From Loxodes magnus (Eukaryota > Ciliophora > Karyorelictea > Loxodida > Loxodidae), in NCBI GenBank assembly GCA_946699065.1, contig CAMPDV010000907.1, positions 1 through 64,000 of the forward strand: a stretch of DNA of 64,000 nt, written 5' to 3'. The first letter of the stretch is position 1, and every line of letters starts with the position of its first letter. The notes below the pieces were generated by a model. That model made no database searches. It had not been told where the DNA came from and worked only from the letters and a program-made list of their open reading frames with translations. The position numbers and the translations under genes are program-made. Below, in pieces: positions 32,522-59,342 of the stretch.

Positions 32522-33850
32522 AAAGTGAGAGCAAATTTTTTTAAACTAGTTTTATGAATAAAAATAAAAATAATTAAATAAAAAAATTGTCTGAATATTT
32601 ATTACATCTAAATGCAATTAAATTATTATATTTAGTCAAAAAATATGTCAGATATATAGAAAGAATTCTTCTCTAAAAGCATCAAAAAAGAAAAAAAAGT
32701 AGATGAGGAGAAGAATCCAAAGCAATCCATGTGAATGGAGAAACTCGTAAGCTCAGAGCAGAAGAATTTTTAATTAAAGATTATATATTTTTCTTAATTT
32801 TTGGAATTTTAACTATAAGCAACTAAATTTCTTTGTAGATTAATAATAATTTGAATAAAAATAAAAAATATAATGCCTAGAATAATACTTTTGATACTTT
32901 AAAAATTAAAAATTCTTAATTTTTTTATTAAGATATTAAAAATAAATTATTTATTTTTTATAAATCGATAATTTAAAGTTAGTGTTTAATTATCTTCTTT
33001 ATTTATAAATATAATTTTATATTTTAAGAACATTAAAGATAATTTAAATTATCTTAAATATCTTATTTTATCTTTCATATTTTCATATTACTTATTTTTT
33101 ATTAATTATTAAAATTAATCTAATTTTTACAAAAATAATTTACTATTTATTCATAATTTATACATATTTTAATATTTTGAAATATTTTGTTTCAATTTAG
33201 TTAATAGATTGCTTCTCCAATTTTAGATTTTTTATTCTATTTCTTTAACTTAAAAATTTAAATTTATCAAAGTTTTAAAATAATAGATTAATTTATCTTT
33301 TTAATTTCTTTAAAAAATTATCTTATTCTACTAGGTTTAATAAATGTTAAATTATTAAACTGATTATTACAAATAGATAATTTAATATAAAAGCAATTAA
33401 AAATTAAACTAATGCTTTAAAATATAAAAATAAATGATAGTAATTTTAATAAAACTATATTCTATTATCTAATCTTTTACATTTTTTTCTTAAATTTATT
33501 AAAAATATTTTATTAATTTAATTATTAATTTCCATATATTTAAAGACTTATAAGCATAAAGCATACTTAAATTAGAATTAATTAATTAATTAAATAAAAT
33601 TTATAATGTTTATTATTTATTTAATAATAAATTAAAAGATACTAAAACTGAACTAAAGTATTTTATTATCTTAATAAATAAATTATTTATTTTACTTTAC
33701 TAATTTTAATTAAATATTTTAATTAAAATCAAAAACTAAACAATAAATTAAATTTTATTCTTTTAAATATAATTTATTAATTAAATTTATCAAATAACTT
33801 AAATTATCATTTTTGTATCATTTTAGATAAATCAATAAATAATAAATATA
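32522..33850. other. A+T-rich spacer
   Basis: This is among the most A+T-rich stretches of the window. It has no recognisable feature and separates the surface-gene array from the retroelement zone. Confidence 0.35.
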
Positions 33851-34235
33851 TTTTATTATAGAGCGCGTAACACCTCGTTGGTGTGCAGCTCTTTCCATAT
33901 CTCAAAAATATCAGTTTTTTCAAGTAAACCTTCAGGTAATAGAAATTCTTCTCTTATTAGTTGCATATCTTCCTCATTTTCCTCTACATTATCTCTTGTT
34001 CTTCTGTCTTCTATCTATCCACACTTTATTAGTTCTTTATTGCAAGCTTAAATAATAATAATACAATAATAATAGATTAATGTTGTACCACCTTTAATAT
34101 GTTCATTACAAATAATGATATTAATATTGTTAAATTTAATCTCATACAAATTCTAATCTAGCTTGCTCTATATGTAAATCTTCTCTCTTTTCCAACTCTT
34201 CTTCCATGAGATCCAACAATTAATAAAATAAAAGA
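33850..34235 (-). mobile_element. LINE reverse-transcriptase ORF, 3' end only (5'-truncated)
   Basis: On the minus strand one frame reads CNKELIKCGQIEDRR, then EEFLLPEGLLEKTDIFEIW, then KELHTNEVLRAL, followed by A/T-rich short repeats. The last block recurs as FKELHAIEVL at 46,430 and LKELCAIEVLRAL at 59,285, where the adjoining sequence is recognisable as the end of a non-LTR reverse transcriptase. The DNA of the shared block is itself hairpin-prone (GAGCGCG near one end, GAGC near the other), which could be an RT recognition stem-loop. The copy is strongly 5'-truncated, as LINE copies usually are. Confidence 0.55.
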
Positions 34236-34590
34236 TAAATTTTATCTAAAATTAATTAAATTTTATCCTAATTATATAAAGAAGAAAAGCTAATTATCAT
34301 TTATCTTTATAATAAATTAGAATATCCTTTTCTAATAAAATTGATTAAATATTAACTTTAGTTTAATAATAATTTCTCAAATATTTAACTTTTAGAGATT
34401 AGTTTCTAATTATAGAAATATAGATAGACTTAAAAACTTAACTAACTATAATGTTAATTTCACAATAAATTAATTAATATTCTATTTATAATATTTTTTA
34501 AAAGCATATATTAATAAATATCTAGATTAAATTTGTAATTCTAACTTTTAAAATAAATCATAATTAGAAATTAAAAATTTATTAAATAAA

Positions 34591-35475
34591 ATGGCTTCTA
34601 AGAAATAATAGAACTTTGAACAAAATATTTAAACAGGAAAATTCTCTAAAAAATAAAAAAGCGAAATAATTACAATGAGTGAAAGTGAGAAATATGATTG
34701 ATATGACGAACATTAACCACTTGGAAATCCAGAATTAAAAAAACTTCCGACACAAACTCAAATAAATATATTATCTAAGTCATTAAAAGAGTTTATGTTT
34801 AAAAATAGATACCTCATTGATAAAGTAGAAAAATTAGAAAAACTAATAACGTCTTTACTTGAGAAACAATATTAATCATCATAAGAAATAGAAAACAAAC
34901 TGGAACAAAGAATTCTTTAAATTTAATAATAAATTCAGGTAACGTCATTTTCGTTTTAACAGAATTAATCAGATCCTATGGAAATAGAAAATGAAGCCTC
35001 AAATTAAAATAAACAGTAAACGTTTATTTAAAATAAGTAGTAAATTTAAATTAAATAAGTGTTACAGGAATAATAGTTTAAAAGAAGAATAAAATGCTAC
35101 ATGTGCAATAAATAACACCAATGAAAATACTGCTATTAACTAAGCGAAATTTAAAGAAAGAATAAATAAGATACTTTTAAAAAACTATTTAGGATATATC
35201 AAACATAAAGCGGAAAAATTTATAGAAATTTTTTTAAAAATTAAAATCTTAATCCTTGGATAAATAGTTAGGAACGCTACATGCAAGATGAAAACTATTC
35301 AGAATATTAAAGGATGGTGCACTAATGAAGTGCTACACCGCCTAACTAAGCCTAGTAGGAATTCAAGACAAATTAATGGAGACAAGCTGATAGAATAGGT
35401 TAGATGGCTGACTACTAAGGCTTTAACAAAGCTTTTTAACTTTTTTAACTTTAACTTAAGTATTTTTTTATTTTT
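34591..35475 (+). mobile_element. LINE-type ORF1 protein with zinc knuckle, copy 1
   Basis: Start ATG in a purine-rich context (AAATAAAATGGC). The protein begins MASKKQQNFEQNIQ; a coiled-coil-like Leu/Ile/Glu-rich part (LIDKVEKLEKLITSLLEKQ) is followed by Gln-rich linkers and a CX2CX4HX4C knuckle, CYMCNKQHQWKYC, in which the W is TGA and a Q is TAA. About 25 residues later comes LFRIYQTQSGKIYRN, a motif shared by the other copies. It ends in a T-rich region containing TTTAACTTTAACTTAAG. The family is judged non-LTR because neighbouring RT pieces are LINE-like and related copies have short-repeat tails. It would bind RNA as a nucleocapsid-like ORF1p (inference). It is unclear whether this copy is complete. 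Confidence 0.65.
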
Positions 35476-39497: not shown

Positions 39498-41217
39498 ATA
39501 TTCTTAAGTTATAATAAAGGAAAAAAAATGGAAATGGAATAGAATATTCGACTATCTAAAAATTAGGCAAGGAACGCAAGAAGAAGAGCTAACAAAGAAT
39601 TAGAGAAGAAGTAGAAATAAATGGAACACTTATCAAGCTCCTCTTCAGAAGGCAAAGTAATGGTTGGATAAGTTAATGAGAGCACTTCGCTTTCAATTGA
39701 AATGGAAAAGATGAAAAAATTAATTTCTAAATATGAAGAAGAAACATATAATCAAGGAGAAAGAATAATAATAATAATAATAATATACTTAAAGTTAGTA
39801 GAGTTTTGCATTCTCTGGAATTGCAACCAGTTCTTGCGGACAGTTTTTTTAACGTGGGTGTGATCCACGACCTTTTTATTAAGTGGAAGGTTACCACTGT
39901 AACCGTTCAAGTGGTCTTGCAAAAAGCTTTTATTTGTAGATTCCTGTTGGAGTTATTCATAGTTTATTGAGTTGTCTCCATGTTCTTTTCTGCTCTTATT
40001 CGTTTATTTTCTTTCATTATCAACAGTTTTTTAAAATATGTTGATTTGATTTGCAACATCAACAAAGTTTGTATTATTGTCTTTATTTCGTTCTTTTTTA
40101 TGATAATTTATTTTCTATATTTTCTAATCTTTTAATGAAACTTGCAGCAATCATTTCTTTTTCTGGATTCAATTCTGTTTTTAATTCTATTGGCATTTTT
40201 TCTATTTCCATTTTCGTGTCATATTTAAAGTTTTATTGTGACTAAGTTCAGAGTTGTTCTTCCGTTATCAAATTGCTTTGAATGAGCTGTCTTCTGAGTA
40301 TTAATAATTCGTTGTTTTAATCCTCTATGCTATTCATTAATTCCCTTATTTTTTCTCCTTAGTTATAAGCTATTTCTTCATACTTTGAAAATAATTTTTA
40401 CATTTGATCTAGTTAAATTTAAAGTTTTTGATCAGATTCGTTCTTAGGTTATCTTATCTCTATAGATCCTACCATCACTTTACCTTCTGATGACGAACTT
40501 GACTCCTCTCGTTGCTATTGCTTTTTCTAAATTTCTTTTGCCGCTTTTCTCTTTAGGTTTTTAAGTTAATTCTTTGAGAGTCGAAGAGATTAATCCATTT
40601 TTTTTCTATATCAAGGAGAAAGAATTAGAGAGCTTATGAAAAACATTGAGGATAAAAATAACGAACTATTAATTCTTAGGAAATAGCTTATATAAAACAA
40701 TATTGTGACAGAACAATAGCTCTATACTCAGTCTTAAAATAATTTCAAACAAGGGGTAAATATGAGTATTGAAGTCCTCCCTTCTTAAGCAAAAGATTAA
40801 GAAATAAATATAGAATAAAATGTTGATAAAAGTTTAATTAAAAGAATAGAACAAATAGAAAAATTAGTTTTGCCTTAGTTGAATAAAAAAAGTAGACAAA
40901 AAATTGTTGATGTTGTAGGTCGAAATATCACTTATTAAAAAATTGAAAAAATGATAAAAATTGAAAAAAAGAGAAGAAATAAAAACATGAAGGATGTTAA
41001 ACAAACTTTGAATAACCGACTCAAGAATTTATAAATAGAAATTATTTAGTGGTAACATGGAAAATTCATTGTGGTAGCCACCCACATTCAAAAAAAGGCC
41101 GTGGTATACATCCACGTTAAAAAAAAGGTGGAGCGAAATCGGTTGGAATCCCGAAGAACTCCAAAACTCTTAACATTTAGTTTACATTATTATTATTATT
41201 ATATTCTTAAGTTATAA
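39498..41217 (+). mobile_element. Complete-looking ORF1-only retroelement with target-site duplication (host of a nested copy)
   Basis: A perfect 17-bp direct repeat, ATATTCTTAAGTTATAA, lies at 39,498-39,514 and 41,201-41,217. Between them the element runs from a short purine-rich leader and ATG at 39,528 to an (ATT)n tail at about 41,186-41,200. Without the nested insertion it is about 827 bp. The single product is an ORF1-like protein: a basic start (MEMEQNIRLSKNQARNARRR), an acidic serine patch (SSSSSEGKVMVG), a coiled-coil-like section (GERIRELMKNIEDKNNELL) and a knuckle region. In this copy the knuckle is decayed, and the frame is not continuous. There is no reverse transcriptase. Leader, tail and duplication together suggest the element was mobilised at this size. 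Confidence 0.8.
39751..40625 (-). mobile_element. Complete-looking ORF1-only retroelement, nested in the previous element
   Basis: A perfect 16-bp direct repeat, ATCAAGGAGAAAGAAT, flanks it (39,751-39,766 and 40,610-40,625). On the minus strand a short A-rich leader leads to ATG, then MDQSLRLSKNQLKNLKRK, a serine-rich SSSSSEGKVMVGS segment, a coiled-coil-like GEKIRELMNSIEDQNNELL, MEIEKMPIELKTELNPEKE, and a perfect CX2CX4HX4C knuckle CWCCKSNQHILKNC whose first W is TGA. LWITPTGIYKQK follows. The 3' end is a (TAA)n-type tail, seen as AATAATAAT at the left edge. Total length is about 843 bp with no RT. The protein is alignable to its host element along its length, so one family member inserted into another. 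Confidence 0.85.
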
Positions 41218-42068: not shown

Positions 42069-42750
42069 TCAACTTATCATTGTTTCGTCTCTATTTTTCT
42101 CTATAAGTATACTTTTGAAATATTTCCTAAGATAATTTAGCTTATTTCAATTTTTTTCTTCTTTTTTCATCTTTTTTAGTCACTCTTCAACGAATTATAT
42201 GAATCTCTAATTGCTTGACATTTTAGATTATTTTTAATAATTTTTTAATTCTTTATTTTTTATAGAATCTATCAAACTTTATACATTAACATTTTGCTTT
42301 TACGCTTCTGTGATAAGCTTATTTATTATCTTTTTTCTTTGCTTGGAATTTAATTTTTACTGTTCTTCATGTTTAGCTATTTTCTCTTCTTCAAACTAAA
42401 CGTTTGAATTATCAATTTATTTATCAATAAAAATGATTTTTGCTTACTTTTGATTTAAGTTTGATTAGTTAATATTAAAAGAATCTTGCTAAATGTTTCT
42501 TAATTATCTTTCGCTCACTAGAGTAGAATTAAAATGTTTAATCTAATTATCTATGCTTACTTGACTTTTCTGAAATGTTTACATTTATTAAATATAATTC
42601 TAAAGAATATTATTAATCCTACTATTAAGTTGCAAAATGTGAGTAACCATATTAGTATTACACTACACTTACCTGAATCTTCATACATCTTTTCAGAAAT
42701 TAACTCTCTCTGCTACTTTTTAAAAGCAATAAAACAATAGTATAAATAGA
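42069..42750 (-). pseudogene. Remnant of a gene C-like membrane protein (C-terminal part)
   Basis: The minus strand matches the last membrane helices and charged tail of gene C (21,098-21,780), including the terminal TGA context, TTGTTCAACTTATCATTG against TTGCTCAATATATCATTG. The match stops abruptly near 42,750, where a 5'-truncated ORF1 copy begins, which suggests the retroelement interrupted or captured this fragment. No ectodomain is left. Confidence 0.65.
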
Positions 42751-43446
42751 GATAAGTTAACCTAAAAACGAAACTAATCAAAAACTTTAAATTTAATTAG
42801 ACCAAATGTAAAAAGTAATCTCAAATTATGAAGAAACAACTTACAACTTAGGCGAAAAAATACGGGAACTAATGAGTAACATAGAAGATTAGAACAACGA
42901 ATTACTAATACTTAGAAGATAACTTATTTGTAGCAAATTAATAACGGAAGAATAACTCTGAACTTAATCATAATAAAATTTTAAATACGACACAAAAATG
43001 GAAATAGAAAAAATACCAATAGAATTAAAAACAGAATTGAATCCAGAAAAAGAAATGATTGTTACAAGTTTCATTAAAAGATTAGAAAATATAGAAAATA
43101 AATTATCATAAAAAAGAACGAAATAAAGACAATAATACAAACTTTGTTGATGTTGCAAATCAAATCAACATATTTTAAAAAACTGTTGATAATGAAAGAA
43201 AATAAACGAATAAGAGCAGAAAAGAACATGGAGACAACTCAATAAACTATGAATAACTCCAACAGGAATCTACAAATAAAAGCTTTTTGCAAGACCACTT
43301 GAACGGTTACAGTGGTAACCTTCCACTTAATAAAAAGGTCGTGGATCATACCCACGTTAAAAAAACTGTCCGCAGGAACTGGTTGCAATTCCAGAGAATG
43401 CAAAACTCTACTAACTTTAAGTATATTATTATTATTATTATTATTA
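42742..43446 (+). mobile_element. LINE-type ORF1 element, 5'-truncated copy with triplet tail
   Basis: The sequence is nearly the reverse complement of the nested element at 39,767-40,450 and encodes the same protein from IEISQPKNETNQ onward: the coiled-coil-like GEKIRELMSNIEDQNNELL, MEIEKIPIELKTELNPEKE and the intact knuckle CWCCKSNQHILKNC, with W as TGA. It ends in a (TTA)n tail at about 43,424-43,446. The basic start and the serine patch are missing, so it is 5'-truncated. Very high similarity to the nested copy indicates recent activity. The two form a ~650-bp inverted pair about 2.5 kb apart. Confidence 0.75.
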
Positions 43447-44492: not shown

Positions 44493-45003
44493 ACCACCAT
44501 AGTTGTTCGAAGGTGAACAACAAGGTCATCTTCATCAGAGGTTGGGGAAGTTAAGTACCCATAATCGACTTTATGTCTTCCTCTGCTTTGGTTTTACCTC
44601 GAGACATAAGATTCTTAGATCTTCGACACTGGCTTGACTTGGCTTCGTTTATTTTTAATACTGGAACGAAAAAGAAATAATATTGCGAGCTTCATCAGAG
44701 GTAGGGAATTTAAGTACCCATAATTGACACATGTCGTCATCTGCTTTGGTGATGCAATGAGACACAATCCTGCCATGTCCTTGGACCTCCAGCAAGTATT
44801 AAAGATTACGAGTATTCTAAAATTATATCAGTATTGAACATTTTTATCAGTACTGAATAATTATACCAGTATTGAACAAGGTCTACCAGTATCTGATAAT
44901 TTTATCAGTAATAAACATTCTTGCCAATATGAAACATTTTTTTAAAGAGCTGCGCACCAACGAGAGTGCTACGCGCTCTATAATCAAATTTATTTATTTA
45001 TCT
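44493..45003 (+). mobile_element. Retroelement fragment with internal two-unit repeat and LINE 3' end
   Basis: The left part holds two imperfect units, about 44,538-44,650 and 44,690-44,775, each containing CTTCATCAGAGGT and TTAAGTACCCATAAT. Between 44,820 and 44,935 an approximately 20-bp motif (ATCAGTATTGAACATTTT-like) is repeated about five times. The right end, AAAGAGCTGCGCACC to GCGCTCTATAATC followed by TTTATTTATTTAT, is the 3' end shared with the LINE pieces at 46,430 and 59,285. Upstream of it one frame reads VLNKVYQYLIILSVINILAN, so part of this may be diverged RT coding sequence rather than a separate body. Confidence 0.45.
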
Positions 45004-46157: not shown

Positions 46158-46483
46158 TAGGAAGGAGCAATCCTCCAACTAACATTCGCTTAAATTCTGG
46201 TGCCAGGAAGTATCCCATAGGCGAAGAACTGAACAAGAATTTGGTAGGAATCAAGAGAAAAGAGGACTGAAAAGGTATCGAGTGAGTTAATGATGAAAGA
46301 TACCAGTACTTAGGTCTTTTAGTAAGCATTCCAATCGCGGCCCTATAGAAAGCAAAATTCACAAGGGAATTGCTTTCACTATGGAAGACTTTAGCAAATA
46401 CATTTTTTAACTTTAAAATTCTTTTTAAAGAGCTGCACGCCATTGAGGTGCTATGTACTCTCTAATCTTATTTATTTATAAAA
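46158..46483 (+). mobile_element. LINE reverse-transcriptase ORF, C-terminal part with (TTTA)n tail
   Basis: One frame reads LNSGARKYPIGEELNKNL, then KGIEWVNDERYQYLGLLVS, then KFTRELLSLWKTLANTFF, then LFKELHAIEVL. The YxYLGL block, shortly after where the catalytic core would be, fits the thumb region of non-LTR reverse transcriptases, and W residues at TGA codons make sense. The catalytic YxDD is not included, so the copy is 5'-truncated. It ends in CTTATTTATTTAT. The same stretch occurs on the minus strand at 58,437-58,565. Confidence 0.65.
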
Positions 46484-59129: not shown

Positions 59130-59342
59130 GACCTTATTCAAGAAGACTGAAGCATTTGACTCAAGATTTTAGAATAATTTTTAATAAGAAGATTCCCTAT
59201 TTGGAGAAGCTGACATAACTCATCGGACCTCTAGAATTTAACAAGAATCATGAGAACATTTTTAAATATTAAATATTAATATTGAAAGAGCTGTGCGCCA
59301 TCGAGGTGCTACGCGCTCTATAATCATTTTTATTTATTTATA
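59130..59342 (+). mobile_element. LINE reverse-transcriptase 3' end with (TTTA)n tail
   Basis: One frame reads PYSRRLKHLTQDFRIIFNKK, then IPYLEKLTQLIGPLEFNKN, then LKELCAIEVLRAL, followed by TCATTTTTATTTATTTAT. It shares its last 40 bases with the copies at 44,943 and 46,428 and, inverted, at 33,861. Together with the structured segment just upstream it may be one composite, non-autonomous element. Confidence 0.55.

Follow-up and report, generated by a model that had tools for sequence, protein, structure and literature searches.

Loxodes is a ciliate without extensive genome editing, and one locus of its genome raises the question of how an element that encodes a single protein and no enzyme for its own copying can spread, and of what kind such an element is. 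The window analysed here is a stretch of 64,000 nucleotides on contig C907 of Loxodes magnus. The original prediction described two retroelements in it, one nested in the other on opposite strands, each bounded by an exact direct repeat. Both elements and both pairs of repeats are present, at the following positions:

39498-39514, unstranded: left target-site duplication (TSD) of the outer element, ATATTCTTAAGTTATAA, 17 bp, exact
39515-41200, plus strand: outer ORF1-only element, split by the inner element, with a 3' (ATT)n tail
39751-39766, unstranded: first copy of the TSD of the inner element, ATCAAGGAGAAAGAAT (plus-strand letters), 16 bp, exact
39767-40609, minus strand: inner ORF1-only element, sublineage A, 843 bp
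40610-40625, unstranded: second copy of the TSD of the inner element, ATCAAGGAGAAAGAAT (plus-strand letters), 16 bp, exact
41201-41217, unstranded: right TSD of the outer element, ATATTCTTAAGTTATAA, 17 bp, exact

The outer element measures 827 bp after removal of the inner element and one 16-bp repeat, and both sizes agree with those predicted. Triplet tails are present on both elements, and the purine-rich leader expected ahead of the start codon was seen in each as a short A-rich leader followed by an ATG at the 5' end. We consider it very likely that both elements belong to an old, diversified superfamily of ORF1/Gag-like-only non-LTR retroelements that is copied in trans by a LINE enzyme.

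The insertion of the inner element can be compared with its empty site. It is missing from all five outer sister copies; four of these five uninterrupted copies (L086, L087, L088, L090) carry the 16-bp site once, where the window copy carries it twice, and the fifth (L089) has a deletion at the site. The nested pair itself occurs twice on contig C817, in inverted orientation (C817:39500-41219, plus strand; C817:77968-79687, minus strand), and one of these pairs sits at almost the same offset as on the window contig. The C817 pairs may be haplotigs, an inverted duplication or a misassembly.

Copies were searched for in the macronuclear assembly (G000; 7,843 contigs, 705,730,643 bases). For the inner element, at least 37 further places at 97-99% identity were listed among the best 40 of 4,087 candidates, excluding the nested pair and its duplicates, and the outer element has 37 further places at 98-99% identity among the best 40 of 1,418, excluding the window copy and the C817 duplicates. 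The predicted recent movement of the family is supported. Because such a search favours full-length matches, inner copies were ranked a second time by their last 163 bases only (best 40 of 1,080, all 99-100% identical there). Among 20 of these best 40, 19 are full length, their 5' ends lying no more than a few bases from the A-run that precedes the ATG, and L039 alone is 5'-truncated; 20 further inner copies were taken from the list biased to full-length matches. The copies are thus mostly full length and start at the ATG leader, which bears out the view that they are not 5'-truncated LINEs. A 5'-truncated close relative had also been predicted in the window and was confirmed:

42738-43446, plus strand: 5'-truncated copy of inner sublineage B, with an (ATT)n tail

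No clear TSD was found by eye at this copy, the best shared string being about 6 bp.

For the direct repeats, the 60 bases before the ATG were compared with the bases after the tail, duplicates of one site being collapsed and the two ATG-less copies (L039 and the window copy at 42738) being left out. A shared string of at least 10 bp was found in 38 of 43 insertion records of inner and outer elements, against 46 of 838 mispaired flanks, in which the longest shared string was 13 bp. The 43 records represent 41 sites, because L007 and L077 repeat, with longer tails, a site that is represented by another record; by site, 37 of 41 share at least 10 bp, and L055, L058, L060 and L071 do not. In all five outer sister copies the repeats measure 14-16 bp and an (ATT)n tail is present, the flanks compared spanning only about 100 bases. 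Direct repeats are therefore mostly present in other copies as well. An (ATT)n run of at least 13 nt follows the 3' end in all 43 records, and the copies of both elements are dispersed inside contigs, not in telomeric head-to-tail arrays.

Two further observations concern the ends of copies. In some of them (e.g. L043, L046, L051), about 10-19 extra unique bases lie between the TSD and the A-run, which may be untemplated additions or carried-over leader. At one insertion site, six records differ in tail length: 36 (L004), 21 (L005), 21 (L006), 988 (L007), 306 (L008) and 825 nt (L077). The (ATT)n tails of a retroelement can grow into long microsatellites of nearly a kilobase, and such growth may bear on the large low-complexity share of the L. 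magnus genome.

The coding capacity of the nested pair is laid out as follows:

39528-39766, plus strand: 5' part of the outer ORF, with the ATG at 39528; the inner insertion cuts the ORF
39921-40598, minus strand: inner ORF, 226 codons read with TAA/TAG as Gln and TGA as Trp; the frame is open beyond
40023-40064, minus strand: CCHC zinc knuckle CWCCKSNQHILKNC, C-x2-C-x4-H-x4-C, codons 179-192
from 40626, plus strand: remainder of the outer ORF, in which a frameshift precedes the knuckle

The predicted unusual genetic code was borne out at reverse transcriptase (RT) loci of L. magnus, which contain in-frame TAA, TAG and TGA and read cleanly with TAA/TAG as Gln and TGA as Trp. A translation with code 6 was rejected, as it gave apparent stops inside the ORF and the RT loci with in-frame TGA spoke against it. 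The genome paper describes a macronuclear assembly of 706 Mbp and the same code, in which UGA is the only stop and codes for Trp at sufficient distance from the poly(A) tail (PMC11441545). In-frame TGA occurs in the inner ORF at codons 117, 180, 193, 195 and 214; by eye, four of the five align with Trp, Tyr or Phe of other families, and codon 193 does not. The 226 codons read end at a conserved motif. There is no in-frame TGA between codon 214 and the tail, and the frame stays open into the 3' hairpins and the tail.

The inner protein has a basic N-terminus, a Ser-rich patch, predicted coiled-coil-like helices, the motif CWCCKSNQHILKNC, which we take to be a CCHC zinc knuckle, and a C-terminal motif RTWRxLxKLWITxTGIYKQKLF. 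It aligns at 36-92% identity, in some cases partially, with the proteins of L041, L059, L066, L075, L090, L091 and L093; among these relatives the knuckle is degenerate in some copies and the C-terminal motif is weak in L075. A Pfam search with the inner protein returned no family, and a sequence search of the PDB gave weak matches only (e.g. tektin, E 0.015). Its AlphaFold model is weak (mean pLDDT 63, pTM 0.25), and a Foldseek search of the PDB with this model found nothing at E 0.001 or better. In the outer ORF of the window a frameshift precedes the knuckle, and none of the frames contains a complete CCHC. None of the six outer copies read (the window copy and five others) has a complete CCHC in the frame of the ATG; L086 and L090 reach CWCC in frame, with the last Cys missing. 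The prediction that each element encodes only a zinc-knuckle ORF1-like protein thus stands for the inner copy and fails for the outer one. Because none of the six copies keeps an in-frame CCHC, an intact ORF in cis was not needed for the recent outer expansion.

Inner copies fall into two sublineages, A with 37 rows and B with 13 (duplicates of one site included), which are separated by 49 fixed differences. Because all 49 are confined to the first ~390 nt downstream of the ATG and the other ~430 nt have none, one of the two sublineages is a mosaic, which probably arose through recombination or template switching. Over codons 1-131, dN/dS was 0.09-0.14 in 15 pairings of actual copies (five A by three B), and between families dN was 0.29-0.62 and dS ranged from 1.07 to saturated. 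This pattern fits long-lasting selection on the protein, with the inner ORF under purifying selection.

These features bear on whether the elements could be ordinary SINE-like sequences with a chance open frame, whose protein is not made or is irrelevant. All three stops can be read as sense, so chance open frames are common, and even with TGA as a stop the window contains 221 frames of at least 150 aa; outer copies were amplified despite their frameshift, and pieces that combine the 3' hairpin of LINE-A, the dominant LINE, with other bodies occur in the genome. Such an origin is nevertheless improbable in view of the codon-position bias and low dN/dS, the knuckle and C-terminal motif common to several families, and the ATG immediately downstream of the 5' end in full-length copies of both elements. 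SINEs are non-coding, unlike an ORF under purifying selection.

Corresponding hairpin regions were found at the 3' ends of both elements:

39785-39900, minus strand: inner 3' hairpin region immediately ahead of the (ATT)n tail, with the stems GTGG/CCAC, CGTGG/CCACG and CTGG/CCAG
41069-41184, plus strand: outer 3' hairpin region, with stems as in the inner element

Near the tail, the CGTGG-7-CCACG stem is identical in all eight families and the CTGG-8-CCAG stem is kept in seven of the eight; the GTGG/CCAC stem, upstream of the other two, is clear by eye in seven of eight. RNAalifold predicts the CGTGG/CCACG and CTGG/CCAG stems, with seven of nine pairs invariant and a small covariation term; in the other two, both partners are substituted in one sequence and pairing is lost in another. 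By eye, an outer stem that encloses the CTGG hairpin covaries in five of eight families (GCA/TGC, GGAG/CTCC, AGCA/TGCT, GAG/CTC). The signature CGTGG-N7-CCACG-N14-30-GGTTGNNANNCC has 2,331 exact matches in the genome and its reversed control has none. By eye, about half of the matches first listed are of the inner type, and at least nine sequence variants are visible. Three rare variants of the 3' signature were considered as possible LINE ends and rejected, since they carry ORF1-type sequence upstream. With regard to the small-RNA-derived head of SINEs, an Rfam search gave no match up to E 0.1, and a search for undecayed tRNA genes with ARAGORN found none in the elements.

The fixed ends also bear on a host gene family that was retroposed repeatedly to leave processed pseudogenes. 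One ORF, no RT and TSDs of variable length would be expected of such copies too. They would hardly produce 37 or more inner places that share 97-99% identity and begin and end at fixed points, however, nor a structured 3' end followed by a triplet tail in place of poly(A), nor several families with high dS, and we regard this explanation as very improbable.

A superfamily of mobile elements, as we prefer to read these data, extends beyond the nested pair to a third family, absent from the original prediction, with a copy in the window:

34583-35453, plus strand: third ORF1-only element, about 870 bp; its protein starts MASKKQ and contains a knuckle-like CYMCNKQHQWKYC

This family is of high copy number, with places at 93% identity or more among the best 40 of 2,692 candidates; in the 33 rows without flanks, 27 begin at query positions 174-187 and 27 end at 1047-1091. 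Against a profile, its protein matched in the knuckle and the C-terminal motif with an E of 3.7e-4 and a probability of only 36%. Its 3' hairpin matches that of LINE-A (z 5.8, none of 2,000 shuffles), and a decayed element at L080 matches the 3' end of LINE-B (z 5.2, none of 2,000 shuffles); neither 3' end matched the other LINEs tested. Placing the L080 element by its protein was abandoned because it is too decayed. The 3' modules are thus varied: a LINE-A-like hairpin at 34583-35453, a LINE-B-like 3' end at L080 and the two-hairpin module of the families to which the nested pair belongs.

With one layout and high to saturated dS, the families look, from their sequences, more like a long-lived lineage without RT than like half-LINEs. 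A single RT-less ancestor is suggested because the families join the same ORF to the same hairpins, and their diversity suggests that partial parasites can last very long. We also hold, tentatively and at less than even confidence, that an ancient RT-less, protein-coding non-LTR lineage swaps 3' RNA modules, so that its families hijack different LINEs of the same cell.

A helper or parent LINE was sought among the RT families read. Of 30 LINE-A loci, 29 end in a different hairpin and a (TTTA)n-type tail, and the remaining one (L013) runs into other sequence at its 3' end; a blast of the elements against the 30 loci gave no match. LINE-B and LINE-C, a single copy each, have different 3' ends with (TTAA)n-type tails, and the 3' ends of four lower-scoring RT loci also differ from those of the elements. 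The LINE that the original prediction called for, sharing the element-type 3' end and the triplet tail, was therefore not found among the RT families read. In a shuffle test of 3' ends, the families of the nested pair showed weak to moderate similarity to LINE-B (z 0.9-4.1), and the LINE-A2 control scored 3.6 and 3.9 with two families; an earlier test without LINE-A2 had given z up to 4.0 for LINE-B and up to 1.6 for LINE-A and LINE-C. LINE-B is not claimed as the helper, because the LINE-A2 control scores nearly as high.

The sequence examined around element copies covers 64 of the 2,331 signature matches, some of them duplicates, and is biased to young copies. A search of it, outside the LINE loci, with the LINE-A, LINE-B and LINE-C proteins found no RT attached to element copies, as had been predicted, and none of the copies read runs past its tail or start into an RT ORF, which supports stand-alone, ORF1-only elements in this sample. 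RT-type fragments lie near four copies (L044, L054, L071, L076), and a LINE-A piece lies in the window. L054 and L071 are interrupted host copies, because the RT fragments continue beyond the far side of the element; in L044 and L076 they are on one side only. Six long (ATT)n runs other than the inner type occur in the sequence examined. One of these, at L026:634, was rejected because it terminates a different repeat, which has no similarity to LINE proteins (E 0.58 or worse).

This other repeat (L026:160-648, and L010 on the minus strand at 2456-2940) is 78% identical between its two copies, has an ATT/TAT-rich end and is likewise without LINE-protein similarity. Its 3' end is joined to two LINE-A copies, with different 5' breakpoints at about 635 and 1324 of the reference, and the junctions look as if the LINE-A enzyme had switched templates and so produced chimeras. 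Other pieces, which terminate in the 3' hairpin of LINE-A and a (TTTA)n-type tail, are found in the window at 33835-34047, 44930-45001, 46422-46479 and 59267-59341, and also upstream of the element in L061 and L066; one of them is a LINE-A 3' fragment, and several have other bodies and are SINE-like by look. On contigs C5131 and C20, RT matches recur every 2,504 or 2,532 bases on one strand, and these repeats are a tandem array of a LINE piece.

The original prediction likened the elements to mammalian HAL1, which would imply a LINE ancestor whose ORF1 is homologous. LINE-A and LINE-B proved to have different ORF1 proteins, not homologous to the element protein (HHalign E 0.088 and 0.18), and no readable ORF1 was found in LINE-C. 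The name half-LINE in the HAL1 sense is unproven, because these two ORF1s are not homologous and no helper LINE was found. True half-LINEs in the sense of HAL1 or TRE5-A.2 would be deletion derivatives of a LINE with the same ORF1 and 3' end, and their parent would lie outside the RT families sampled; this alternative concerns the origin of the elements and shares the mechanism of copying. The ORF1-only layout, the TSDs and the triplet tail fit it, and the mosaic sublineages could stem from a shared LINE source. The RT families read are also few beside the about 2,700 RVT_1 copies given in the genome paper, which further mentions two or more complete LINE families and leaves most interspersed repeats unclassified (PMC11441545). 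Against these points stand the unrelated ORF1s of LINE-A and LINE-B and the eight 3' families that combine ORF1-type sequence with the same hairpins, which would need repeated deletion at one junction. We therefore regard derivation from a LINE as rather unlikely.

Whichever their origin, elements without reverse transcriptase or endonuclease probably borrow their copying enzyme. Their TSDs vary in length, their 3' tail is simple and the inner element inserted into a site known empty. Read with the established knowledge of non-LTR elements, this insertion pattern suggests that an APE-type LINE enzyme acts in trans and inserts the elements by target-primed reverse transcription. In the proposed cycle, a full-length transcript would start at the A-rich leader and be translated with TGA read as Trp, and the protein would bind and coat the element RNA. 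The RT/endonuclease of a helper LINE would then recognise, in trans, the triplet tail together with the folded 3' end, and target-primed reverse transcription would yield a mostly full-length copy with TSDs of about 10-19 bp and an (ATT)n tail.

If the superfamily is real, two questions become testable: why a parasite that does not copy itself keeps a protein of its own, and whether the LINE that it exploits is determined by its 3' RNA module. We found no paper describing such elements in the literature on Loxodes retroelements. Some of the unclassified L. magnus repeats mentioned in the genome paper may be the elements described here, and the finding may thus name part of them (PMC11441545).

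Several known systems share part of this organisation. In LINE/SINE pairs of the stringent type, the LINE recognises a 3' stem-loop and a short repeat tail, and the SINEs are non-coding. The Loxodes elements resemble such pairs in their short repeat tail and in stem-loops conserved in eight families, whose recognition by a LINE RT is putative, and the 34583-35453 family has a LINE-A-like hairpin; unlike these SINEs, they encode a protein. To our knowledge, RT-less non-LTR elements with only a Gag or ORF1 are few, namely HAL1, HeT-A and TRE5-A.2. HAL1 of mammals is a non-autonomous non-LTR element that encodes only ORF1p, derives from L1 and arose several times independently (PMC5753468). The Loxodes elements, with one ORF in 843 and 827 bp and no RT found, are similar, but a LINE parent carrying a homologous ORF1 was not found for them, their tail is (ATT)n and their families look old. 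HeT-A of Drosophila is likewise a non-LTR element without pol, thought to borrow Pol from another element, and HeT-A and TART are reported from several species spanning a genetic distance of 120 million years (PMC5537684). HeT-A copies form head-to-tail arrays at chromosome ends, whereas the Loxodes elements are interspersed, flanked by TSDs, and end in a triplet tail. TRE5-A.2 of Dictyostelium lacks ORF2, is mobilised in trans by TRE5-A.1 and is active in assays (PMC5391098). It is a direct derivative of a living autonomous element and inserts upstream of tRNA genes, whereas no such parent is known for the Loxodes elements. HAL1 and TRE5-A.2 are derivatives of a known LINE (PMC5753468, PMC5391098). 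In Loxodes there appears to be an entire superfamily, comprising more than 2,300 signature 3' ends, families whose dS is high to saturated, and very young copies.
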